In this document: positions 9,893 to 45,331 of the stretch, one piece after another | Layout of the letters: each line of letters begins with the position of its first letter | Numbering within the stretch: position 1 is the first letter of the stretch | DNA from: Myxococcaceae bacterium | GTDB taxonomy: Bacteria; Myxococcota; Myxococcia; Myxococcales; Myxococcaceae | Direction: 5' to 3' | Length of the DNA: 63,470 bases | Assembly (NCBI GenBank): GCA_017881265.1 | Contig: JADGRA010000039.1 | Location: 1-63,470, forward strand | Notes under the pieces: model-generated | What the model saw: the letters and a program-made list of their open reading frames with translations, nothing else | The model's database searches: none | Told to the model about the DNA's origin: nothing | Translations under genes and position numbers: made by a program

Positions 9893-10525
9893 TCAAAACC
9901 GTCCCGCCAGCGCACCGCCTCCTCCGTTGGGGGAGAAGAAAAACGTCGGGACGACGGTGGGCCCCGGCGGCGGAGGCTCCGCGGCCGCACGGGCTGAAAA
10001 TTCATAGCCCATCACCGCGCCCACCACCGGCAGCAACAGGGCCAGCGCATACGTCCCCTTGGCCGCGGAGGAATTGGAGAGGCTGGTGGCGGTCAGGTAC
10101 ACCCCGCCGCCCACCGCCAGGCCCGCCATGCTGGACAGCCAGCTGACGAGGAAGCTGCCGTCTTCGCCAATGGTGTAGCCGGTCAGCGTCACCGCCAGGG
10201 GCGCGCCCACCGCCACGCCCAAGGGCGCGCCGAAGAGGGAGGTGAAGTGCTGCGTCTGGGTGGAGTTGTTGCTGGTCCCGAGAAGACCGCTGAAGGCCCA
10301 CTCACTGAAGAAGCCCACCGCGGCGCCGCCCACCAGCCCCGCCCCGGCTTCCAGGCCGAGGCGCAGCGGCGCACTCATCGGCGCTGGCGCCGGCACCGCC
10401 ACGGCGGGCGGCGTCCCGGCCGCCAGCACGTCCTTGTCCTGCAAGGCTGCCTGCACCTGCGCCAGCGCCGGCGTGCCCAGCAGCAGCACGGCCAGGCCCA
10501 GGGCCCGTCGCAATCGTGTGCGCAA
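9893..10525 (-). CDS. Exported or membrane hypothetical protein
   Basis: About 210 residues. It begins with a clear signal peptide (MRTRLRR, a hydrophobic core, then TPALAQ). The body is rich in Gly and Ala, with several hydrophobic stretches and a Thr/Ser/Asn-rich patch, and ends in a Pro-rich segment and GGGG. I read the start as TTG at 10525, with GAAGAGG 8 nt upstream; the longer ORF upstream has no membrane-protein-like composition. I do not recognise the family; an outer-membrane or lipid-exposed protein is possible. It converges on the MshEN gene and is divergent from pccB. Confidence 0.6.
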
Positions 10526-31012: not shown

Positions 31013-34000
31013 TCACGGCCGCTTGCCCGACGGCGATGGCTTGGTCGCATCTCTCACCGGCCCCAGGTAGCGGTCGTACCAGTCGAGCGTCTCCCGCACC
31101 AGCTGGTCGCGGGGGACGAAGTGCCCGGACTCGTAGATGACCTGCCGCTTCTGGGCCGGGGGTGTCCCGAAGCGCTCGAACATCGCCCGCTGGGAGCCCT
31201 CCAGCGGGAAGTAAGGGTCAAAGCGCCCGTTCAGCATGAGGACCGGGATGGTGACGCGACTGACGAAGTTGAACGCGTCTACCTCGGGGAGCGGGCGCGT
31301 GAAGAGGAGTCCAGCCACGTGAAGCACTGCGGCCTTGAGGCGTGGCTCGACGGCAGGAATCAGCCCCCCGAGGGCGCCGCCCCAGCTGAAGCCGAAATAG
31401 CCTAGCTTCTGCGCGTCGATGTCGGGACGCGTCTCCAGGTAGTCGATGCTCCGGCTCAGGTCCTGGGTCCACTGGATGACCGAGTCGCGGTAGGCCACCG
31501 TTGGCTGTGGGTCATCGGTGAGGATGTCCCGGTTGCGCTCGCCCTGCCGCTCGAGCGTCCCGCGGTACACCGGGAACATCAGCGCACGGCCGCTGCGCAG
31601 CAGGAATTCCCAGTAGGGGAACTCCTCGTCGATGGAGTGTTCGAAGAGCGCGTTCGAGCCGGGGAAGTAGACGATGGTCTGGTACGGCGGAGCCCCCACC
31701 TTGGGAAGGAAGAGGTAGGCGATGACGCGGGCCTGACCGTACGCCGCGTCGAACGTCACCTTCTCCCGCACCCAATCGTTGGTGCTTTCCGTCCCTTCGA
31801 CGACGGCGTGCAGCGGCAGCTTGTCGTAGGCGTACATGCGTCGGTAGAGCTTGAATTCTGCGTCCGGGGCCGGGGTCTCCTTCGCGTAGTCCCGGAATGG
31901 CTGGTCGACCGGCTCCTTGGCCTTGCCCAGGTTGGGATTGGTACCGAGGTAGGTGACCAGCCGCAGGCCGTTGGTCTGCGAGCGGTCCCACGGGGATTGG
32001 ACCACCCGGTCGGAGAAGGCGTAGGCCGGGTCATTCCATCCCCCGCCGAGGATGAACCGGCCCTGGACTCCGCCCGTCGCCTGATTCAGGCACCACTCGC
32101 GCACGTTGCCAGCCATGTCGAATGTCCCGAAGAGGCCGACGCCCGGGTACTGCCCGACGCGCGCCGGGCCCTTGTCGGCGAAGTTACTCGCCGGGACAAT
32201 CCAGCGTGCGGAGAAGACGCCCGCGGCCCGGCGCCAGTGAAACAGCGTCGGGAGCTCCCGTCCCTCGAACGCGGCGAAGGCCGCCGCCTCGAACCAGCTG
32301 ACGCCACTCACCGGAAAGTCGTCCTGGCCCTTCGGAAAGCCGCTCAACTCCCAGGTGCTGGGCCCCGGCCGGCCGGTGCGGTCGACGAAGAAGGCCTTCG
32401 CCTCCTCGAAGCTGAGCTGGCGCCCGTCCTTGAGGAAAGGCTCTCGCCAGAATTCCGGCCGGGCATAGCCGCCGGCCGCCACGAAGGCCTGGTACCGGCG
32501 GTTGGTCACCTCGTACCGGTCGAGGAGGTAGTCGTCGAGCGCGAGCTCGTGGGTGTCCCCACCCGGGCCGTAGTTCCCGCCCGGGACGTGCACCCGGTCC
32601 TCGGCAAGACTGCCGACCTTGTCCAGCGGAATGACGACGGTCCCGAGAGTCCCGGTGCCCATCCCGCCTTCGTAGGGACGGTAACCCTCCAGCGCGAAGC
32701 GGAAGCGAAAGAGGATGTTTTTCGGAAGCCACGTGGTGAGCGGCGTCACGCCGAGGTCGTGCCAGGGCGCGTTGGCGGCGGCATAGTCCCGAAACTGGAC
32801 GCGCGCGCCGGGGGGCGCGGTCCGGATGGTCACCTGCGAGGCGAAGGTCCGCCAGGCCGCGACCAGCTCCGGGTTGCCCGGGAGCGCGGCGTTGGCCTTC
32901 ATCGCCAGAAGCTGCGCCGCCAGGGGGTTGTCCGAGTCCACCAGCCGGTGCAGCTCCGGGATGACTTCGGCGCGCAGCCACTTCTCGCCGTGGCGAAGGC
33001 CAAACCATCCGCCGACATACGCCGCCACGGCGAGGGCCACCGCGGCAGCCACCAGCGCGGCGAGCGTGACCGCGAGGACGTGGCGGCGCCGCACCATGAC
33101 GGCCGGGTTGTCGACGTACTTCGCCACGTCGCCGGCCGCTGCAAACCGGCGGGCCGGCTCCCGCTCCAGGCACCGGAGGACGGCCGCGTTCCATCGCTCG
33201 GGCAGCTCCGGTACCGCCGTCTTGGGGGCCGCCGGCCTCTCCTTGACGCGTTTGAAGGCCGTCTCGAGCGGGGTCGCCCCAGCGAAGGCCATCTTGCCGG
33301 TCAGCATTTCGTACAGCACCAGCCCCAGCGCGTAGATGTCCGCGGGCGGGCCGACTTCACCTCCCGTCACCTGCTCGGGCGCCATGGACTCGGGCGTTCC
33401 CAACAGGCCCGCGCCGGTGACGTTCTCGGACGAGCTCGCGTCCGGGTGCAGCGCGCGGGCAATGCCGAAGTCCGTCACCACCGCGCGCATCTCCGTGGAC
33501 GCGCGGCCCTGCGCCTCCCCGGACACCAACATGACGTTGCTCGCCTTGAAGTCCCGGTGCACCACCCCGGCGGCATGTGCCGCATCGAGCGCCGCCGCCA
33601 TCTGGCGCAGCACCGGAAGCACCGCGGCCGGCGACATCCGCCCCTTGCGCCGGAGACGCTGGTGCAGCGTCTCGCCGTCGAGGAACTCCATGGTGAGAAA
33701 GTGCAGCGGCTCTCCCGACGGGCCTTGCGTCGAGTACAAGTCGTAGATGCGGCAGACGTTGGGGTGGCTGGCCTTGCGGGCGAGGATGACTTCGCGCCGG
33801 AACCGCTCCAGAGCCGCCGGGTTGTCGGCGAAGTGCGGAAGGATGGTCTTCAGTGCGACGTGGGTGCGCAGCACCTCGTCCTTCGCCTCGTACACCTCGC
33901 CCATGCCGCCGGCGGCGATGAAGCGGACAATGGTGAAGCGGCCGGCCACCGAGTCACCGGGCTGAAGACGCGGGGCGCCCCCAGGACTACCCGCCGGCGT

Positions 34001-34114
34001 GGAGCCTGGTGTGAATTCGGCCGTCTCCTGGGATGCACGCCCAGGTGGGCTGGCCGCCGTGGCGGGGAACTCCGCCGGAATGTCCGGGGACGGCTTTGGT
34101 GGGTCCTGACTCAC
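31013..34114 (-). CDS. Ser/Thr protein kinase fused to FGE/SUMF1 domain and alpha/beta hydrolase
   Basis: A 1033-residue protein of three enzymatic modules. Residues 58-335 are a Hanks-type kinase: glycine loop AAGGMG (67-72), Lys89, HRDFKASN (catalytic Asp188), DFG (215-217) and TPESMAPEQ. A membrane segment lies at 345-370. After a PEGA-like beta stretch (about 427-500), residues 506-722 form a formylglycine-generating-enzyme-like (SUMF1) domain ending in DMAGNVREWC. Residues 755-1025 are an alpha/beta hydrolase with nucleophile Ser910 in GFSWGG and likely Asp966 and His998. The kinase faces the cytoplasm and the rest the periplasm, if the segment spans once. The start is a GTG at 34114. 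FGE-like domains in such proteins often lack sulfatase-activating Cys pairs; I did not confirm any here. Substrates unknown. Confidence 0.9.
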   Translation of the reverse strand: MSQDPPKPSPDIPAEFPATAASPPGRASQETAEFTPGSTPAGSPGGAPRLQPGDSVAGRFTIVRFIAAGGMGEVYEAKDEVLRTHVALKTILPHFADNPAALERFRREVILARKASHPNVCRIYDLYSTQGPSGEPLHFLTMEFLDGETLHQRLRRKGRMSPAAVLPVLRQMAAALDAAHAAGVVHRDFKASNVMLVSGEAQGRASTEMRAVVTDFGIARALHPDASSSENVTGAGLLGTPESMAPEQVTGGEVGPPADIYALGLVLYEMLTGKMAFAGATPLETAFKRVKERPAAPKTAVPELPERWNAAVLRCLEREPARRFAAAGDVAKYVDNPAVMVRRRHVLAVTLAALVAAAVALAVAAYVGGWFGLRHGEKWLRAEVIPELHRLVDSDNPLAAQLLAMKANAALPGNPELVAAWRTFASQVTIRTAPPGARVQFRDYAAANAPWHDLGVTPLTTWLPKNILFRFRFALEGYRPYEGGMGTGTLGTVVIPLDKVGSLAEDRVHVPGGNYGPGGDTHELALDDYLLDRYEVTNRRYQAFVAAGGYARPEFWREPFLKDGRQLSFEEAKAFFVDRTGRPGPSTWELSGFPKGQDDFPVSGVSWFEAAAFAAFEGRELPTLFHWRRAAGVFSARWIVPASNFADKGPARVGQYPGVGLFGTFDMAGNVREWCLNQATGGVQGRFILGGGWNDPAYAFSDRVVQSPWDRSQTNGLRLVTYLGTNPNLGKAKEPVDQPFRDYAKETPAPDAEFKLYRRMYAYDKLPLHAVVEGTESTNDWVREKVTFDAAYGQARVIAYLFLPKVGAPPYQTIVYFPGSNALFEHSIDEEFPYWEFLLRSGRALMFPVYRGTLERQGERNRDILTDDPQPTVAYRDSVIQWTQDLSRSIDYLETRPDIDAQKLGYFGFSWGGALGGLIPAVEPRLKAAVLHVAGLLFTRPLPEVDAFNFVSRVTIPVLMLNGRFDPYFPLEGSQRAMFERFGTPPAQKRQVIYESGHFVPRDQLVRETLDWYDRYLGPVRDATKPSPSGKRP

Positions 34115-36896: not shown

Positions 36897-37748
36897 TCAG
36901 CGCGCGCCGGCCGACGACGCCAGGCGCACCACGGCGGCCACCTCGGCCGCCGTCTCGCCGAAGTGCGCCCCGGCCAACGCCACGCGGTGGGGGTGCTCGC
37001 GGGCCATCGGGCCACCCACCACCACCGGGGCGGAACAGCCCGCCACCACGGCACGGACGAAGGCCTCCATGTCCTCCGGCGGCCGCGGGGTGACGAAGGA
37101 AAGCGCCACCACGTCCACCTCGGAGGTGCGCGCCGCCTCCGTCACCGCCTCCACCGGCGTGTCCGCGCCCAGCACCGCCAGCCGCCAGCCGGCCGCTTTG
37201 AGATGGACGCCCAGGCCCAACACGCCCCCCTCGTGTTACTCCCCGCTGGGGCAGGCCAGCACCACCCGGGGGCCGGTGCCCGCCCCGGGCGCCTGGGTCA
37301 GGGCGCGCAGCCGCTGGCGCACCAGGGCCGAGGCCAGGTGTTCCCGCGCGACGTCCAGGCGGTCGGCCATCTGGCGCAAAAGCGGCAGGAGGAAGGTGTC
37401 GCACAACGCCACCGGCGTCATGACGCGCTGGGCTTCCGTCAGCACGGTGTCGGCGCCTTCGGTGTCCAGCACCGCCACGGCGGACCAGAAGCGCTCGCGC
37501 AGGTGTTCCGTCACGCTGACGGGCCACACCGGCACGGTGCGCACCTGCTCAATCGCCTCGCTGGCGCTGAAGCCCTCCTCAATCAGCTGCGCCACCCGGC
37601 GGATGGCCTCCACCTCGTCCCGCGAGTACGTGCGGTAGTTGTTTTCCCCGCGCGCAGGGCTGGGGAAGCCGTAGCGCCGTTCCCAGGCGCGCAGGGTGGC
37701 CTCGCGGATGCCGGTGAGGCGGGCAATGGTGCGGATGCGCAGCTTCAT
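36897..37748 (-). pseudogene. carA: CarA-type MerR-family repressor of carotenoid genes, interrupted by an in-frame TAA
   Basis: The reading frame starts at ATG 37748 and would give about 283 residues (usual for CarA/CarH). Residues 1-75 are a MerR-type HTH (KLRIRTIARLTGIREATLRAWERRYGFP), followed by the helical bundle with REH (136-137). A TAA codon at 37238-37236 stops it after Glu170 in PSGE; the frame continues HEGGVLGLGVHLKAAGWRL and a full B12-binding Rossmann domain to a TGA at 36897. In CarH the ligating motif is E-x-H, and here the stop replaces x. The Trp of the Wx9EH motif, expected at 126, is Gln, so this looks CarA-like (B12-independent) more than CarH-like. Whether the N-terminal product still represses is unknown. 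A sequencing error is possible. The upstream acyltransferase overlaps it by 4 nt. Confidence 0.85.
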
Positions 37749-38434
37749 GCCGTGCCCCCGCCGGGAAGGCCCCGCACCGCGTCCCAGCGCTCGGCCACCC
37801 CGGGCGCACCGGCAAGCAGCTGCTGCAGCCCATCCAGCCGCGTCCGTCGCGAAAGCGACGCCACCTGCGCCTCGAGCTGCCCGGCGAAGGTGGACAAGGG
37901 CCCGGGCGGGTGCACCGGCCCTAGTTCCAAAAGGACGTCCGGCCTCTCATGTTCAAAGAAGGCGTAGCGAATGCCCAGGGCGCAGCAGGGGGCCTGGGCC
38001 ATGCGGGCCAGCACCTCGACGCCGCGCAACAGGCGCAGCGGCCTCTCCCCGAAGGGGCGGATTTCCCCTTCCGGAAAGACGAACACCGCCGCGCGCGGCC
38101 GGCGCAGAAGAGACGCCGCGTAGCGCAGGGAAGCGAGGCTGCTTCTTGCCTCGCCGGGCCGGACGCCGAAGGCGCCAATGCGGCCGAGGAAGCGGTAGCG
38201 CTCGAGATTCTTTTCTTCCATCAGCGCGTAGGCGTCCCAGCCCGCGGCCCGGCCGAGGGCGTGGACGACGAAGCCGTCCCACCAGCTGGTGTGGTTGGCG
38301 TAGACGAGGAGGCCGCGGTCCGCCTTGGGCAGCGTGCCGGACAGCCACACCCCGCGGAAGGCGTGGCGAATTTTTCGCCGCAGGTAGGCCTCCACCACGA
38401 AGGTGCCGAGGCCGCCCTTGTTGGCCTTCCTCAC
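37745..38434 (-). CDS. Acyltransferase (lysophospholipid acyltransferase-like) of the carotenoid operon
   Basis: About 229 residues. The acyltransferase motif is NHTSWWDG (HX4D), and a VFPEGEIRPFG block matches the second motif. No N-terminal membrane anchor is obvious. The start is a GTG at 38434 in a GTGA overlap with crtYd. The next gene, carA, starts in an ATGA overlap. Its place inside the operon suggests acylation of a carotenoid glycoside. Monocyclic carotenoid glycoside fatty-acid esters are known from myxobacteria. That role is inference. Confidence 0.8.
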   Translation of the reverse strand: MRKANKGGLGTFVVEAYLRRKIRHAFRGVWLSGTLPKADRGLLVYANHTSWWDGFVVHALGRAAGWDAYALMEEKNLERYRFLGRIGAFGVRPGEARSSLASLRYAASLLRRPRAAVFVFPEGEIRPFGERPLRLLRGVEVLARMAQAPCCALGIRYAFFEHERPDVLLELGPVHPPGPLSTFAGQLEAQVASLSRRTRLDGLQQLLAGAPGVAERWDAVRGLPGGGTA

Positions 38435-38787
38435 GTCGACTCTCCCCGGACCGGGGCGCGCCAGGCCCAGCCCTTGCTGAAAAGCGCCAGGCCGAAGGCC
38501 ACCAGCAAGTTCGTGAGGAGGAAGAAGAGGGCCTCTTCCAGAGGGACGTGCCACAGGTACACGCCGAGGTGGCTGCCCTCGCCGAAAGCCCACACCCCCT
38601 GGGAGACGGCCAATTCATCCCCCAGTACCAGCCACGCCGTCACCCAAAGGGCCGGCGGTAGCACGGTGCGCACCAGCGCCGGAAAGCGCCGGCCCCAGGC
38701 CCGCGCCAGAAGTCCCAGCTGCAGCGCGAGGACAGGCAGGCCCCAGCCGAGAAGGTGCAGCAGGTACGCCCAGCGTCCCGCACTCAT
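38431..38787 (-). CDS. crtYd: Lycopene cyclase subunit CrtYd (heterodimeric type)
   Basis: A 118-residue membrane protein with three hydrophobic segments. It contains the GVYLWHVPLEEALFFLLTN motif characteristic of one half of CrtYc/CrtYd cyclases. With CrtYc it forms a beta-ring from the lycopene psi-end. Myxococcus CrtYc/CrtYd is a monocyclase, giving gamma-carotene. It overlaps crtYc and the acyltransferase by 4 nt each. Confidence 0.88.
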   Translation of the reverse strand: MSAGRWAYLLHLLGWGLPVLALQLGLLARAWGRRFPALVRTVLPPALWVTAWLVLGDELAVSQGVWAFGEGSHLGVYLWHVPLEEALFFLLTNLLVAFGLALFSKGWAWRAPVRGEST

Positions 38788-39107
38788 GCCGCCCTCCCAC
38801 CGTACTCCGGAAGGCGCCCCAGGCGCCGGCGCACCCACAGTCCCGTCAGCAGCGTCTGCAGCCCGAAGAAGAGGTACTCCTCCAGAGGCAGACCTGCCAG
38901 CCGCAGCCCCCACGTTTTTCCGGGCGGGAAGTCCCACAGCCCGTGCCGCACCGCCCAGCTGTCCCACGGGGTGGTGGCCGCGTACACCACCAGCAAAAGC
39001 AGCAGCAGCGGTCCCCACGGGCGGCGCCGGACGTCCCTTCGCCAGGCCCAGGCGAGAAGGGCGAGGGGCAGCACCAGAAAGAAGAGGAGGAAGTGGCCGT
39101 ACGTCAC
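38784..39107 (-). CDS. crtYc: Lycopene cyclase subunit CrtYc (heterodimeric type)
   Basis: About 107 residues with three hydrophobic segments and the GLPLEEYLFFGLQTLLTG motif. It starts at GTG 39107 in a GTGA overlap with the glycosyltransferase stop, and its stop overlaps crtYd. It partners with CrtYd in lycopene ring closure. Another in-frame ORF extends upstream, but that part belongs to the glycosyltransferase. Confidence 0.87.
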   Translation of the reverse strand: MTYGHFLLFFLVLPLALLAWAWRRDVRRRPWGPLLLLLLVVYAATTPWDSWAVRHGLWDFPPGKTWGLRLAGLPLEEYLFFGLQTLLTGLWVRRRLGRLPEYGGRAA

Positions 39108-40201
39108 GGTTCCTCCAGGGGCAACAGGGCCGGTTCCAGGCGTCCGCCCGGAAGTAGCCAGAAGCACCGGCCGCGCCAGGCGACGTCGCGCACGGCCAGG
39201 GCATGGACGAAGGACACCAGCAAGAGGGCCTCACCCAGCGGCCACTCGCGCGCGGCCTGCGCGCGCTGGCCCGGCCGCGCCAGGCGCACGGCCAGCGCGG
39301 TGCGGGCCGCCCACAACAGGGACACCAGGCCCCAAAGCCAGGGCGAGCCGGCCAGCAGCGCCACGGGCAGGAGGACGGGCGTCGGGCACAGCAGCAAGGG
39401 GACGGTGGGCAACAGCGCCGGGCGGTGGGCGCGCAGCACCCGCATCCACCGGCTGAAGCGCCGCACCACCGCGCCGCTGCCCAAGGGCCCCCCGAGCGGC
39501 ATGGGCGCCGGCGCGCAGGCCAGCACCACCCGGCTGCCCATGGCGTGAAGCCGCAGGGCCAGTTCCAAGTCCTCGCCCAGGTAGTGGCCGAGGCCCGGCA
39601 GCAGCGCCTGGGCCTCGCGCCCCAGCCCCAGCGCCTTTCCGCACAGTGCCGGGGCGCCCAGACTCATGAGGTGGAGCGGGACGAAGGCCTGGTGCGTCCA
39701 GGCCAGCAGCGCCTGCGCCGCCCGGGCGGCCAGGCCCACCGCACCGGTGGGTTCCGGCGCTGCGGTGCACAGGGGCGCGCCGTCCGCCAACGGCAGCGCC
39801 AGCGCGGTGACGAGGGCCGCGTCCACGGCGACGTCCGCGTCCACTGCCAGCACCACTTCCTCCGCGCGGGGCAGCGTCGCCAGCGCGTAACGCAAGTGGC
39901 CCACCTTGCGGTTGGGTTCCACGGGGTCCGAGTACAGCCAGTCCATGTGCGCGGGCAGCCGCGGCCGGTAGGGGGACAGCACCACGTGGCGCAGGGCCCC
40001 GCCGTACGGCACCGGCAACGCTAGGTTTTGCAGCTCGCGCTCGGTGGGTTCATCCAACGGGCGCAGCAACAGGACGGCCGGCAAGGCACCGGGGGCGGCC
40101 GGGGCCGGGCGGCGACGGGGCAGAAGCCGCGCCAGCGTGACGGCGCTGAAGAGGACGGCCACGGTGGCCCAGGCCAGCGCGAAAACAAGGGCCGCATTCA
40201 T
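39104..40201 (-). CDS. Family GT21-like glycosyltransferase of the carotenoid operon
   Basis: A 365-residue membrane glycosyltransferase. An N-terminal membrane helix (about 1-26) is followed by the GT domain with DAD at 121-123, a catalytic acid in YLGEDLEL (about 208-214) and RFSRW at 248-252, the (Q/R)xxRW motif of ceramide glucosyltransferase and HpnI relatives. C-terminal hydrophobic segments follow. Located between crtC and crtYc with 4-nt overlaps at both ends, it is the best candidate for glycosylating the 1'-hydroxyl made by CrtC. This is inference; the sugar is unknown. Starts at ATG 40201. Confidence 0.82.
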   Translation of the reverse strand: MNAALVFALAWATVAVLFSAVTLARLLPRRRPAPAAPGALPAVLLLRPLDEPTERELQNLALPVPYGGALRHVVLSPYRPRLPAHMDWLYSDPVEPNRKVGHLRYALATLPRAEEVVLAVDADVAVDAALVTALALPLADGAPLCTAAPEPTGAVGLAARAAQALLAWTHQAFVPLHLMSLGAPALCGKALGLGREAQALLPGLGHYLGEDLELALRLHAMGSRVVLACAPAPMPLGGPLGSGAVVRRFSRWMRVLRAHRPALLPTVPLLLCPTPVLLPVALLAGSPWLWGLVSLLWAARTALAVRLARPGQRAQAAREWPLGEALLLVSFVHALAVRDVAWRGRCFWLLPGGRLEPALLPLEEP

Positions 40202-41118
40202 GCGGCACGCTCCACCCGCGTCCGGAAGTGCGCCATCCACCGGACGAGGGGCGAGCGGAAGCGGCGAAAGTCCGCCACTTCCCCCAGCGCCTGCGCCGTC
40301 CCGGAAGACGCCTCCAGCCGCGCGTAAAAGGGCGAGGATTCCAGAAGCCGCGGGGCGGCCAGGCGCAGCGGCCCGGCCTGCAAGGCGGACGGCACCGCAA
40401 GGCCCCAGCCGGTGCGCACGAAGGGGGACGGCGGCTGTTGCCGCCGGATGAGAGTGGCGCCCGCGGACGTGGCGGACACCCACAGGGCCTGGCCGGCGGG
40501 AAGCTGGTAGTGGACGTGGGTGGCGTCGGGGGCGTGCACGCGCGCCCACGTCCATCCGGGCAAGTCCGTCCCCAGGGGCACCTCGCCTGCGTTGCTGTCG
40601 TGGTAGCCGACGCCTTCCAGCACCTCCCCCAACAGCGGCAGGCGAAAGGTGGCCCGGGCCCGCGGGACCAGCGGCGTCCAACGGTGGGAAAGGCCCTCCA
40701 CCAGCGTCTGGGGCGGAAGCCCGGGGACTTCCGGCCGCAGGGTGAGAGCGGCCTTGGTGAGGGGGCCGAAGGGGGCGCACCGCTCACGGACGAAGAAGTC
40801 CACCGTGCCGTCCGGGTGGTAGTGAAGGCGGGAGTTGCCGATGCGCAGGCTGCGCCCGTCGGCCTGGGCGCCGGCGTATTCGCTCAGCACCCACTGCTGC
40901 CGCACCCCGCGGCGGTAGAGGGCGAAGTTGACGGCGCAGTGCTGCAGGGGCGCGGCGCCGTGGGCGGCGCGCGCCGCGTAGCGCGCGGAGAAGAGACTCC
41001 CCAGCATGAGGATGAAGACGGCCGTGGTGTCCCCGGCGACGACGTCCGCGTAGTACCAGCGGTAGGCCCCGGGCGCCTCCGGCACGGACAGCAAAGCTGG
41101 AGCAGCGTCGGCCGTCAT
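40198..41118 (-). CDS. crtC: Carotenoid 1,2-hydratase (CrtC)
   Basis: A 306-residue protein matching hydroxyneurosporene synthase. Recognised blocks are YYADVVAGDTTAVFILMLGS near the start, the FALYRRGVRQ strand and YHDSNAG near the middle. It adds water across the 1,2 double bond of an acyclic end, giving a 1-hydroxy group. That group is a likely site for glycosylation by the enzyme encoded just downstream. ATGA overlaps occur at both ends. No CrtD is in the window. Confidence 0.88.
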   Translation of the reverse strand: MTADAAPALLSVPEAPGAYRWYYADVVAGDTTAVFILMLGSLFSARYAARAAHGAAPLQHCAVNFALYRRGVRQQWVLSEYAGAQADGRSLRIGNSRLHYHPDGTVDFFVRERCAPFGPLTKAALTLRPEVPGLPPQTLVEGLSHRWTPLVPRARATFRLPLLGEVLEGVGYHDSNAGEVPLGTDLPGWTWARVHAPDATHVHYQLPAGQALWVSATSAGATLIRRQQPPSPFVRTGWGLAVPSALQAGPLRLAAPRLLESSPFYARLEASSGTAQALGEVADFRRFRSPLVRWMAHFRTRVERAA

Positions 41119-42062
41119 GTCGACGTCTCGCTGGGAAGCAGCGGCACGGCGGGCTCCGCCGCCGGCGCGGGCAGCAGCGTCTGGGGACGGAAGAGGGCCC
41201 GGATGGCCAGCCGCAGCTTCGCGGAAAACGGCACGTGGGCCCGGGCGGAGAAGACGTCGTAGCCCTGCGCCTCGATGGCGCAGAGGATGCCCCCGTAGAG
41301 GGCGCCCATCAGCTTCACCATGCGGCGCGTGCCGAAGCCCTGCAGGAAGGGGATGCCGCGCGCGGCGCGGGCGTAGAAGGCGCGGGCGCGCGCAATCTGG
41401 CAGCGCAGGAAGGCGCGCATGCGGTCATCCACCTGCGCGCGCTGCAGGTCCTCCTCGCCGAGGCCGAAGGCGGACAACTCGTCCGCCGGCAGGTAGACAC
41501 GGCCGCGGGCCAGGTCCTCCTTCACGTCCCGGAGGATGTTGGTGAGCTGCATGGCGCGGCCCAGGTCCGCCGCCGCCGTGAGGGCCCGCTCGTCCGAGTA
41601 GCCCAGCACCGGGCACAGCATGAGGCCCACCGTGCCCGCCACGCAGTAGCAGTAGCGGTCGAGCTCGGCGAAGCGCGGGTAGGCCTTCAGCCGTAAGTCC
41701 ATCTCCATCCCGGACAAAAGGTCCAGAAACGGCGCGCGCGGAATGGCAAAGCGCCGGATGGCATCCTTCAGCGCGGCCAATTCTGCCGGGTGCCAGGGGT
41801 AGTCCTGCCCGCCCGTGTCCTCGGCGGGACTTGCGTCGAAGAGGTGGGCCACCAGCGCCCGGGCGCGGGCCAGCCGCTCGGCTACGGCGTCCGTCGGCCC
41901 CACGTCCACCACGTCATCCAGCCGGCGGCAGAAGGCGTACAGGGCGAAGGCCGCCCGGCGCCGTGCCCCGAAGAGAAGCAGGGAGGCGACGTAGAAGCTG
42001 CGGGCGTGCACGCGCGTCAGGCCCTGCGCGCGCCGGTACCCTTCTTTCACCAGGGCCGTCAC
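41115..42062 (-). CDS. crtB: Phytoene synthase
   Basis: A 315-residue squalene/phytoene synthase. Asp-rich motif 1 is RRLDDVVD and the second motif is QLTNILRDVKEDL; YCYCVAGTVGLM lies between them. It condenses two geranylgeranyl-PP to phytoene at the membrane. GTGA overlap with crtI upstream and ATGA overlap with crtC downstream show tight translational coupling. Confidence 0.93.
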   Translation of the reverse strand: MTALVKEGYRRAQGLTRVHARSFYVASLLLFGARRRAAFALYAFCRRLDDVVDVGPTDAVAERLARARALVAHLFDASPAEDTGGQDYPWHPAELAALKDAIRRFAIPRAPFLDLLSGMEMDLRLKAYPRFAELDRYCYCVAGTVGLMLCPVLGYSDERALTAAADLGRAMQLTNILRDVKEDLARGRVYLPADELSAFGLGEEDLQRAQVDDRMRAFLRCQIARARAFYARAARGIPFLQGFGTRRMVKLMGALYGGILCAIEAQGYDVFSARAHVPFSAKLRLAIRALFRPQTLLPAPAAEPAVPLLPSETST

Positions 42063-43591
42063 GCGGCGACTCCCAGGGGCGCCTCGGCCGGCTGCCGCAG
42101 CACCGCGCCAAGCTGAAGGGCGTGCGCGCGCATGCGCTGGACGGCCAATTCGGCGGACACCATGACGGTGGGCAGCCCCGTCCCGGGGGCGGTGGAGGCG
42201 CCGACGAAGAATAGGTTTTTCAGGTGGGCGTCCTGGTGGCGCGGGCGGAAGGGGCCCACCTGGCCCAGGTGCATGCTGAGGCCGAAGGCGCTGCCCTTTT
42301 CCAGGCCGTACGACGTCTCCCAGTCGTCCGGGGTGAAGCTGCGCTCCACCTCAATCCGCTGCTCGAGGGGGAAGCCTTCCTGGGCCAGGCGGGCAAACAC
42401 CTTGGCCCGCAGCCTGGGGCCCTCCACCGCCCAGTCCAGCCCCGGGTGGCGGTGCGGCACCGGCACCAGCACGTAGACGCTGTCCTTGCCCGGCGGCGCC
42501 AGCGAGGCGTCAGTGCGGTTGGGCACCGCAACGTAGAAGCTCGGGTCCTCCGGCACGCGGTGGTGCTGGAATATGTCGTCGAAGGACTGCCGGTAGCCGC
42601 GGCCGAGGAAGACGCTGTGGTGGCCGAGGCCGACGGCGGGCCGCTGCAGCCCCAGGTACAAAAGGTAGCCGCTGGAGGTGTAGTGCAGCCGCGCGGGCCG
42701 CCGCAGCCGGGTGTGGGCACTGTCCAGCAGCGTCCGGTAGGCAAAGGGCAAGTCCACGTTGCACAGCACAAGGTCCGCGGACACGCGCGTGCCATCCGAC
42801 AGCTCCACGCCCTCCACCGCCCCCGGGCAACTGAGGATGCGGCGCACTTCGGCGCGGTAGTGCAGCCGGGCGCCCTGGGTACGGGCCAGCTTCTCCAGGC
42901 CGAGCGGTAGCACGTACAGGCCGCCCTTGGCGAAGTACACCCCGACGCCCATCTCGCTGAAGGGCAGCAGCCCGTACACCGCCGGAGCCCGGTAGGGGGA
43001 CATGCCGAGGTACATTGCCTGGAAGGTGACGGCCGCCTGCAGCCGCTCGTCCTTCAGGAAGCTTCGCGCCACCTGGGCCAGGCTTTGGTGGGCCCGTAGC
43101 CGCAGCATGTGCCAGAGGTTGGCCGGGGTGAGGAAGTCGGCCGGCCCGTCGAAGTTGCGCAGCACGAAGCGCTCCAGCCCCACCCGGTACTGCTGGCCGG
43201 ACAGGGCGAGGAAGCGCAGGAAGCCCGGGGCGCTGCCCGGGACGAGGGCTTCCAGTTCGGCCGACAGCGCCGCCAGGTCAGACTGCAGGGTGAGGCCGGT
43301 GCCGTCCGGGAAGTGCAGGCGGTAGTTGGGGTGCAGGCGGCTGAGGCTGAGGTAGTCCTCCAGCTTCTCGCCCACCGCCTGGAAGGTGCGGGCCAGCACC
43401 TCGGGCATGAGGAGGATGGTGGGGCCGGTGTCGAAGGTGAAGCCGCCCAGGCGCAGCTGGCCGCAGCGGCCACCCGGGCCGGCGTGTTTTTCAAAGACGT
43501 CCACCTCGAAGCCGGCGTGCGCCAGGCGCGCCGCCGCGGCCAGGCCGCCGACGCCCGCTCCCACCACCGCCACTCTCAGTCGCCGTGCCAC
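42059..43591 (-). CDS. crtI: Phytoene desaturase (CrtI type)
   Basis: A 510-residue FAD enzyme. Residues 6-35 form the dinucleotide-binding VVGAGVGGLAAAARLAHAG fold, and the family C-terminal block GASTAPGTGLPTVMVSAELA is intact. It turns phytoene into neurosporene or lycopene. Myxococcus xanthus has two desaturases (CrtIa and CrtIb) in its cluster; only this one is present here. The start is GTG 43591, 44 nt after crtE. It overlaps crtB by 4 nt. Confidence 0.92.
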   Translation of the reverse strand: MARRLRVAVVGAGVGGLAAAARLAHAGFEVDVFEKHAGPGGRCGQLRLGGFTFDTGPTILLMPEVLARTFQAVGEKLEDYLSLSRLHPNYRLHFPDGTGLTLQSDLAALSAELEALVPGSAPGFLRFLALSGQQYRVGLERFVLRNFDGPADFLTPANLWHMLRLRAHQSLAQVARSFLKDERLQAAVTFQAMYLGMSPYRAPAVYGLLPFSEMGVGVYFAKGGLYVLPLGLEKLARTQGARLHYRAEVRRILSCPGAVEGVELSDGTRVSADLVLCNVDLPFAYRTLLDSAHTRLRRPARLHYTSSGYLLYLGLQRPAVGLGHHSVFLGRGYRQSFDDIFQHHRVPEDPSFYVAVPNRTDASLAPPGKDSVYVLVPVPHRHPGLDWAVEGPRLRAKVFARLAQEGFPLEQRIEVERSFTPDDWETSYGLEKGSAFGLSMHLGQVGPFRPRHQDAHLKNLFFVGASTAPGTGLPTVMVSAELAVQRMRAHALQLGAVLRQPAEAPLGVAA

Positions 43592-43635
43592 GTGCCGTCT
43601 TCCCCCTTCAGGGAGGCCCCTTTCTAGCGCCTTCG

Positions 43636-44697
43636 CTACGCTGAGCGCCGGGCCAGTAGGACCAGCAACTCGTCCAGGACGTCCGCCACGCCGCCGCCCG
43701 GGGGCAGGGCGGCCACCGCCGCGCGGGCGGCGCGGGTGGCCCGGTCCACCAGCCGTTCCGTGGCGGCCAACCCCCCGTAGGAGGCCACCAGGCTGCGCGC
43801 CCGGGCCAGCGCCACCGGATTCGCGCTGCGCAGATTCCACAACGACTGCAGCTCCGCCCGCACCGAGTCCGGGGCGCGCAGGTGCGCCGCCACCACCGGG
43901 AAGGTGCGCTTGCCTTCGACGAAGTCCCCATCGGCGCACTTGCCGCAGGCATGGGTGTCGCCGAAAAGGCCCAGCAAGTCGTCCCGCAGCTGGTAGGCCA
44001 GGCCCATGTGCCGGCCCACGCGCTCCAGGGCCTGAAGCAGCCCCGGCTGGGCCCCGGCCAGCATGGCCCCGCACACCAGCGGGGCGACGAAGCCGTAGCG
44101 TGCCGTCTTCAACCGGGCCACGCGCAGCGCCTGGGTGAGGGTGACGTCGGCCAGCGGGGTGCGCCCTAAGTCAATGTCCAGGTACTGGCCGGCGGCTGTC
44201 TGCCGGCAGATGGACAGGTAGTACTGCACCGCGCGGCGGGCCGCCGGAAGGCCGCTCTCCAGCATGGCCTCCACGCTTCGGGCAAACAGGTGGTCTCCCA
44301 CCACCACCGCCAGGTCCGCGCCCAGCTTGCCGGCGCCCAACAGGCGGTGCAGCGCGGGGCCACCCCGGCGCAGCTCCGCCCCGTCGGCCACGTCGTCGTG
44401 GATGAGGAGGAAGGTGTGCAGCAACTCGAAGCCGGCGGCGAAGTGCCACAGGCGCTCCGGCACGGCCGAGCTGCCCTTGGCGATGGCGTGCCCCAGCGCC
44501 AACAGCGCCGGACGCATCCGCTTGGCGGGGCGAAGCGTATAGGCTTGCGCGTGCGCCATGGCCTGTGTCCACCGCACGTCCAGCCCCTCCTCGTCCGGAA
44601 GCTGGAAGAGACGGCGCAGCTCGGCCTCCACACGCACCTGCACGTGGGACAGCCAGAGGGGGGCCAGGGAGGTGGGGGTGGCGAGGGAGAGGGCCAT
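43636..44697 (-). CDS. crtE: Geranylgeranyl diphosphate synthase
   Basis: A 353-residue trans-prenyl synthase. The first Asp-rich motif is IHDDVADG and the second is LRDDLLGLFGD; GKRTFP and the RPALLALGHA helix also fit. It makes C20 diphosphate for CrtB. First gene of the carotenoid operon. I take ATG 44697, since the longer ORF crosses the operator region; another in-frame ATG at 44799 would overlap the divergent gene. Confidence 0.92.
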   Translation of the reverse strand: MALSLATPTSLAPLWLSHVQVRVEAELRRLFQLPDEEGLDVRWTQAMAHAQAYTLRPAKRMRPALLALGHAIAKGSSAVPERLWHFAAGFELLHTFLLIHDDVADGAELRRGGPALHRLLGAGKLGADLAVVVGDHLFARSVEAMLESGLPAARRAVQYYLSICRQTAAGQYLDIDLGRTPLADVTLTQALRVARLKTARYGFVAPLVCGAMLAGAQPGLLQALERVGRHMGLAYQLRDDLLGLFGDTHACGKCADGDFVEGKRTFPVVAAHLRAPDSVRAELQSLWNLRSANPVALARARSLVASYGGLAATERLVDRATRAARAAVAALPPGGGVADVLDELLVLLARRSA

Positions 44698-44757
44698 GCG
44701 GTTGGCTCCGGCAACTCTTGGAGGAGACGGGCTTGCAGTAATCTTCTGTCGAGGGTA

Positions 44758-44785
44758 CGTCAAGGCCTTGTATACTGTTTGTAGA
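44758..44785. promoter_or_regulatory. Three 11-bp-spaced TnTACA-like repeats between crtE and the divergent gene (probable CarA/CarH operator)
   Basis: Read on the minus strand, TCTACA (44785-44780), TATACA (44774-44769) and the weaker TTGACG (44763-44758) begin at exact 11-bp steps. This agrees with the TnTACA direct repeats at 11 bp bound by CarH in Thermus and with the CarA/CarH operators of Myxococcus. The third repeat is also a -35-like box for crtE. On the plus strand, TATACT at 44771-44776 is a good -10 for the gene at 44798. So one regulator may control both directions. Binding is not tested. Confidence 0.65.
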
Positions 44786-44797
44786 TAGGAGTTTTGC

Positions 44798-45331
44798 ATG
44801 GGTTCCCTCCTCCCGCTGGCGTGGCTGCTGGCCGGTGCTGTCCCTGCCCAGGCCGCGCCTGCCGTCGACGCCACGCTGGCCGACTCACGCGACGCGCCGG
44901 TGCGCCTGTCCAGCTTTCGCGGCAAACCCCTCGTCCTCTTCTACGAGGACCGGGACTCCTGCGAGCAGAACGCCAGGCTGAAGCGGGCGCTGCACCAGCG
45001 GGCCGAGGCGGCCCAGCTGAGCCAGGCCGCGCACGTGCTGGGCGTGGCCAACGTCGCCTCCTATGACTTCTGGCCGGCGCGGGGCTTCGTGCTGGCCGCC
45101 ATCCGCGACGTCGAGGAGCGGGAGCGCATCCCGGTGCTGGTGGACTGGAAGCGCACGATGGGTGCGGCGCCCTGGCGGCTTCCGGAGGGCGCCTCCTCGG
45201 TGGTGCTACTGGACGCCGAAGGCCACCTCGTCCACGGCTGGACGGGCGCGGTGGAGGGGCAGGACATGGAGCAATTCTTCGAACTGCTGGGCGAGTTGGT
45301 GCGGCGCGCCTCGGAGTCCGCCGCCCTGTAG
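44798..45331 (+). CDS. Thioredoxin-fold periplasmic protein without CxxC
   Basis: A 177-residue protein with a signal peptide (SLLPLAWLLAGAVPAQA) and a redoxin-like fold: LSSFRGKPLVLFYEDRDSC, then a VANVASYDFWP strand. The usual CxxC is replaced by a single Cys (residue about 50) in the DSCEQN loop, so disulfide exchange is unlikely. A good AGGAG site lies 6 nt upstream of the ATG, and the -10 region shares the CarA-like repeats. Thus it may be controlled together with the carotenoid operon. I do not recognise a characterised family; YtfJ-like is possible. Confidence 0.7.
   Translation: MGSLLPLAWLLAGAVPAQAAPAVDATLADSRDAPVRLSSFRGKPLVLFYEDRDSCEQNARLKRALHQRAEAAQLSQAAHVLGVANVASYDFWPARGFVLAAIRDVEERERIPVLVDWKRTMGAAPWRLPEGASSVVLLDAEGHLVHGWTGAVEGQDMEQFFELLGELVRRASESAAL

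Follow-up and report, generated by a model that had tools for sequence, protein, structure and literature searches.

Does a single CarA-type operator govern both the carotenoid gene crtE and its divergently transcribed neighbor, a gene for a thioredoxin-fold protein, in a Myxococcaceae bacterium, and if so, which repressor is left in this organism to occupy it? The question is posed by the intergenic region between the two genes in a window of 63,470 nt (the whole stretch of DNA analysed, contig JADGRA010000039.1 of assembly GCA_017881265.1; genome 4.4 Mb). The answer is an operator of an ordinary kind within a conserved divergent arrangement, together with a regulator that in this lineage is unusual and stripped down.

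Direct repeats in the crtE-ytfJ intergenic region

On the minus strand the hexamers TCTACA (44785-44780), TATACA (44774-44769) and TTGACG (44763-44758) start at exact 11-bp steps, precisely where the original prediction, made from the sequence, had placed them. Their core had been given as TnTACA; the published repeat consensus of CarA/CarH operators, nnnnTnnACAn (PMC9304148), requires that it be read TnnACA, to which TTGACG is an imperfect copy with three of four matches. The prediction was right about these three copies and overlooked a fourth, full TnnACA in the same register, TCGACA (44752-44747, minus strand). One further register, CAAAAC (44796-44791, minus strand) at the start region of the divergent gene, is degenerate in the window. 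The operator as a whole reads CAAAAC-TCTACA-TATACA-TTGACG-TCGACA (repeats 1 to 5), a layout of dr1-DR2-DR3-dr4-DR5.

Three full matches and one three-quarter match across four consecutive registers give a score of 15 out of 16, the highest in the 63-kb window on both strands; the runners-up score 12 (neighboring registers of the same site) and then 11. When the 100 bp between the two genes were dinucleotide-shuffled 5000 times, no shuffle attained the three- or four-repeat score of the real sequence. In the genome-wide statistics, which are pattern searches, TnnACA-N5-TnnACA-N5-TnnAC occurs once in 4.4 Mb, at the crtE operator, and the reversed control of this three-repeat pattern does not occur in the same sequence. 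Across 60 relatives the pattern is found mostly at the equivalent crtE-ytfJ intergenic region, with the remaining matches scattered or located in genomes (e.g., G020) where the control matches too. An inverted-repeat operator was also considered and was rejected, the site having no relevant palindrome.

In Myxococcus xanthus the operator consists of five 11-bp repeats, DR1-dr2-DR3-DR4-dr5, with the -35 within the fourth (PMC9304148); the mapped PB promoter has a -35 of TTGACA and a -10 of TACCTC, and the CarA footprint extends from -70 to -19 (PMC8156234). The comparison with relatives that had been proposed as a check was carried out on 33 crtE-ytfJ intergenic regions (the window and 32 others, including M. 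xanthus), and all of them align on the operator register without gaps. The M. xanthus row of this alignment is TGTACA-ATCGCA-TAGACA-TTGACA-TGGACG. These repeats, in register with a footprinted operator, bear out the assignment of the site to the CarA/CarH type. A chance origin, in which the repeats are ordinary -35 and -10 hexamers, spaced 11 bp apart by accident and bound by no repressor, can point to the overlap of two of the four with putative promoter elements; the uniqueness of the pattern in the genome, the outcome of the shuffles and the conserved register make it very improbable.

Full TnnACA matches occur at registers 1 to 5 in 22, 8, 31, 29 and 1 of the 33 loci, respectively. At repeat 4 the window operator lacks the match seen in most relatives; at repeat 5 it has one that they miss, the sole full one at that register. 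Its layout differs from those of all 32 other aligned operators, and does not occur among the layouts given in the text of PMC9304148. Such an apparent rearrangement of repeats agrees with the plasticity of CarA/CarH operators described there. One record (L096), titled 'Comamonas sp. KCTC 72670', holds a Myxococcus-type crt locus with the operator and is probably mislabelled.

The crtE promoter and the carotenoid operon

The operator lies before crtE of a carB-type operon, and repeat 4 (TTGACG) is aligned to the TTGACA that was mapped as the -35 of M. xanthus PB, in keeping with the role of crtE -35 that had been assigned to the third copy. As a -35 it falls short of the TTGACA found in relatives. 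The candidate -10 is TACTGC (44735-44740, minus strand; TACCTC in M. xanthus), at a 17-bp spacing. A scan for consensus sigma-70 promoters and terminators returned nothing in either direction.

All genes of the operon are on the minus strand. crtE (43636-44697; PF00348, E 1e-48; about 50-68% identical in relatives) encodes geranylgeranyl diphosphate synthase, and is followed by a crtI-type desaturase of the amine-oxidase family in the crtIa position (42059-43648; PF01593), the phytoene synthase gene crtB (41115-42062; PF00494), and crtC (40198-41118), assigned as carotenoid 1,2-hydratase on a match to NF045922 that is below the cut-off (E 7.6e-22). Beyond these are an orf6-like glycosyltransferase gene (39104-40780; PF13506) whose true start is probably downstream, a CrtYc/CrtYd-like lycopene cyclase region (38431-39234) recognized from a weak PF18916 match and its conserved position, an orf9-like acyltransferase gene (37745-38593; PF01553), and carA. 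This is the M. xanthus carB gene order (PMC8156234) minus crtD and carH. In most relatives crtD stands between crtB and crtC, but the region 40198-42062 has no crtD; two other contigs of the assembly, C43 and C33, carry further crtI-like genes. Elsewhere in the window, a large protein with Ser/Thr kinase and FGE-sulfatase domains and an alpha/beta-hydrolase-like end is encoded at 31013-34114 (minus strand).

The divergent ytfJ-like gene

The gene on the other side of the operator (44798-45331, plus strand) is preceded by an AGGAG ribosome-binding site (44787-44791, plus strand) 6 nt before its ATG, and encodes a 177-aa product with a putative signal peptide, as read from the N-terminus. The YtfJ profile (PF09695) matches 15 of 17 family members at E <= 0.01; the window member scores 18.4 bits against a curated cut-off of 24. 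A predicted model (pLDDT 90) has a thioredoxin fold, and Foldseek ranks ResA first. Despite this ranking a thiol-redox, ResA-like enzyme was rejected: neither a conserved cysteine nor a CxxC active site is found across the YtfJ-like relatives, and the sole cysteine of the window protein is replaced by Thr, Ser or Val in them, so ResA-like thiol chemistry is not expected. This residue, Cys55, is near the active-site position of thioredoxin-like proteins. The gene product is best described as a putative secreted thioredoxin-fold protein.

Throughout the family this gene keeps company with carotenoid genes. It adjoins crtE divergently in 34 of 35 named loci, among them M. xanthus itself (L097), and in the remaining one (L111, MAG SJ496) it is found at 10001-10453 within the crt cluster, codirectional and after a car-type regulator gene. 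By coordinate comparison the pairing is present in every one of the 27 sampled genomes whose crtE neighborhood can be seen, one of which (G036) belongs to a different family; strong ytfJ-like matches elsewhere in these genomes are rare, with a single case, in G005. Word searches of the two core papers, PMC9304148 and PMC8156234, and of a wider literature library gave no mention of the pair, and the divergent arrangement is apparently conserved but undescribed.

Proposed shared control of both directions

That the operator is common to crtE and the divergent thioredoxin-fold gene had been predicted from the window, and the conservation of the arrangement across the family upholds it. Most relatives have the ytfJ start codon 13-15 bp away from repeat 1; in the window, 12 bp separate the ATG from repeat 2. 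With a start only about 12-15 bp from the repeats, a promoter would not fit outside the operator, and a bound repressor should therefore block both genes.

A candidate -10 for ytfJ does lie inside the operator in most loci. Many Cystobacterineae have TATGTC or TATGTT with TTGCGT at 17 bp, and in seven deep-branching MAGs the candidates are of the kind TATAAT, TATAGA or TATAGC, preceded at 16-17 bp by a TTGCA-type -35. TGCAAC, conserved in most of the deep-branching MAGs and unfit for TnnACA, would make sense as a -35 for the divergent gene. These candidates are consensus matches from best-of-many searches and hence serve as leads; the stricter scan gives no promoter. In the window, TATACT (44771-44776, plus strand), which overlaps repeat 3 and had been named as the -10 of the divergent gene, gains from its position at the same operator coordinate as the candidates of the seven MAGs, and loses from the weak -35 of the window and the empty consensus scan.

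It is this weak -35 opposite TATACT, together with the lack of a consensus promoter toward ytfJ, that might favor control of crtE only by CarA, with an independent promoter for the adjoining gene; nor was any light regulation of the divergent gene reported in the papers found. Such independence seems unlikely when the distance between the ytfJ start and the repeats is too short for an outside promoter in most species, and when the pairing is kept in every visible case, with the gene inside the crt cluster in L111. From the sequence arrangement it would follow that one bound repressor should hold down both crtE and the ytfJ-like gene.

A probable shortened CarA

The only candidate repressor is encoded by the carA frame at the end of the operon (36897-37748, minus strand), which over its whole length is 55-62% identical to 25 CarA orthologs and only about 29-40% identical to the second, CarH-like copies of the same loci; its MerR-bundle half is 63-69% identical to the orthologs. 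The recognition helix motif RxWERRY is intact (LRAWERRYGF). In the Wx9EH motif the EH is kept and the Trp is missing (QMADRLDVAREH). Codon 171 is TAA (37238-37236), positioned inside the ExHxxG B12 motif where the orthologs have His, Met, Ile or Phe, and none of the 25 has an in-frame stop. The resulting ORF (37236-37748, minus strand) encodes 170 aa, comprising the MerR DNA-binding domain and the helical bundle, and does not include a complete C-terminal B12-binding/dimerisation domain. The B12-binding (Rossmann) half is left behind as a remainder at 36897-37235 (minus strand). In a published survey of 27 myxobacterial genomes carA always occurred in tandem with carH; here it stands alone, with an SDR gene in the usual place of carH. 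At two other loci (L047 and L048) a CarH-like gene and no CarA-like gene ends the crt operon, perhaps a second loss of CarA besides that in the Cystobacter group.

The TAA could be a sequencing or assembly error, in which case an intact, full-length CarA would repress crtE and its divergent neighbor as in M. xanthus. The frame does stay open for 112 codons past the TAA and closes with a TGA where the C-terminus usually is, the B12 motif keeps its ExHxxG, SxV and GG residues around and after the stop, and the gene is uninterrupted in 25 of 25 orthologs. Divergence after the stop weighs against an error. Mean identity in this part is 0.50, compared with 0.67-0.78 in other taxa, and the terminal branch is 0.89 after the TAA vs. 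0.32 before; 13 of 46 invariant residues are changed after it and 3 of 76 upstream (Fisher P = 2e-4), and post-TAA conservation is below that of every other taxon in 99.8% of bootstraps. The failure to find the remaining light input (CarH, CarS, CarF) points the same way, and an error is judged unlikely.

Conversely, the truncated carA might be a pseudogene and the operator a relic, its repeats unbound and crtE and ytfJ constitutive. The truncation itself, the missing CarH, CarS and CarF, the degenerate repeat 1 and TTGACG in place of TTGACA could all be read in this way. Decay is nevertheless absent from the DNA-binding domain (1 change in 46 invariant residues) and from the helical bundle (2 changes in 30), and the four registers retain their 15 of 16 matches, including a full repeat 5 that is unique among the aligned operators; a dead regulator on a dead site is improbable. 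Loss of the B12 half from a carA whose DNA-binding half appears still to be constrained fits these sequences better than either a sequencing error or a dead gene. The M. xanthus CarA dimerises via its B12-binding domain (PMC8156234), and for this reason the 170-aa CarA may bind weakly or not at all.

Light-input genes

CarH was not found; the whole assembly has a single MerR-B12 gene. Searches of the genome for CarS with a single sequence and with a four-row profile, and for CarF with PF10520, gave no match, while controls were found. The assembly is fragmented, with a completeness of 95.7%, and CarS or CarF could accordingly lie in a gap, just as the TAA could be an error; absence of the two from the organism is suggested by these searches. 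In a search for CarQRS, PF06532 gave a weak match, and only in the organism's own genome. At L065:1486-2807 of that genome, genes for a CarQ-like sigma factor and an NrsF-type anti-sigma precede a frame at the place expected for CarS. This frame is labelled DUF1223-like from its translation and not from a profile, and a fatty-acid-desaturase-like frame adjoins the sigma/anti-sigma pair. One relative (L049, genome G008) has CarA, CarH and CarF, and there, too, CarS was not found by sequence or profile.

It is on this point that the original prediction, in which one repressor would switch off both directions in the dark, does not hold up well: neither CarH, CarS nor CarF was found, and the sole CarA carries a stop in its B12 motif. 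The dark switch may no longer operate in this organism. With these genes not found and CarA without its B12 half, control should be B12-independent, and is perhaps no longer light-switched.

Proposed mechanism and its significance

The reading we consider likely is that of a shared CarA-type operator of the carotenoid operon, run by a shortened, B12-free CarA that would block crtE and ytfJ. The MerR-type DNA-binding domains of CarA would line up on one face of the DNA at the tandem TnnACA sites of repeats 2-5. Since repeat 4 holds the crtE -35, the aligned domains would block RNA polymerase at crtE, and as the same sites cover the only fitting promoter position for the ytfJ-like gene, one repressor would hold both directions. 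The repressor is most likely the 170-aa CarA, its Rossmann half lost. We infer the binding, the divergent promoter, the repression of both genes and the activity of the shortened CarA from the comparisons described above.

A broader proposal is more tentative and is offered as possible: that a family-wide light/carotenoid operator drives, as a fixed divergent pair, crtE and the gene of a cysteine-less, secreted thioredoxin-fold protein, a member of the photo-oxidative response that has gone unrecognised, and that the circuit has here been stripped to a CarA without its B12 domain, on a rearranged operator and with no photoreceptor or antirepressor. The ytfJ-like gene is a candidate addition to a bacterial light response that is among the best studied, and M. 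xanthus has the same pair. In the window organism the B12-binding half of CarA seems to have been shed and the DNA-binding half and the operator kept, so that the shortened protein is a natural test of which parts of CarA repression needs.

Comparison with known systems

The closest counterpart is the PB (Pcrt) operator of M. xanthus and other Cystobacterineae (PMC9304148, PMC8156234), which shares with the window the register of its 11-bp TnnACA repeats ahead of crtE, the -35 within repeat 4, and carA at the end of the same operon. The window differs in its dr1-DR2-DR3-dr4-DR5 layout with a full repeat 5, in its TTGACG -35, and in having a truncated carA and no carH. The divergent gene resembles the YtfJ/HI0045 family (PF09695, TIGR01626) in its thioredoxin-like fold and in the weak profile matches of 15 of 17 members, whereas the window member falls below the curated cut-off and its subfamily is crt-linked. 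In the CarH operators of Sorangium cellulosum (crtI-carH and crtE-crtD; PMC9304148) one operator likewise overlaps two divergent promoters; both partners there are carotenoid or regulator genes and the repressor is CarH, in contrast to the ytfJ-like partner and CarA alone in the window. Finally, Cystobacter, with its dimeric CarH (PMC9304148), provides a parallel for a single-repressor circuit on the same operator, reached from the opposite side: Cystobacter has kept CarH and lost CarA, while in the window organism CarH is gone and a shortened CarA remains.
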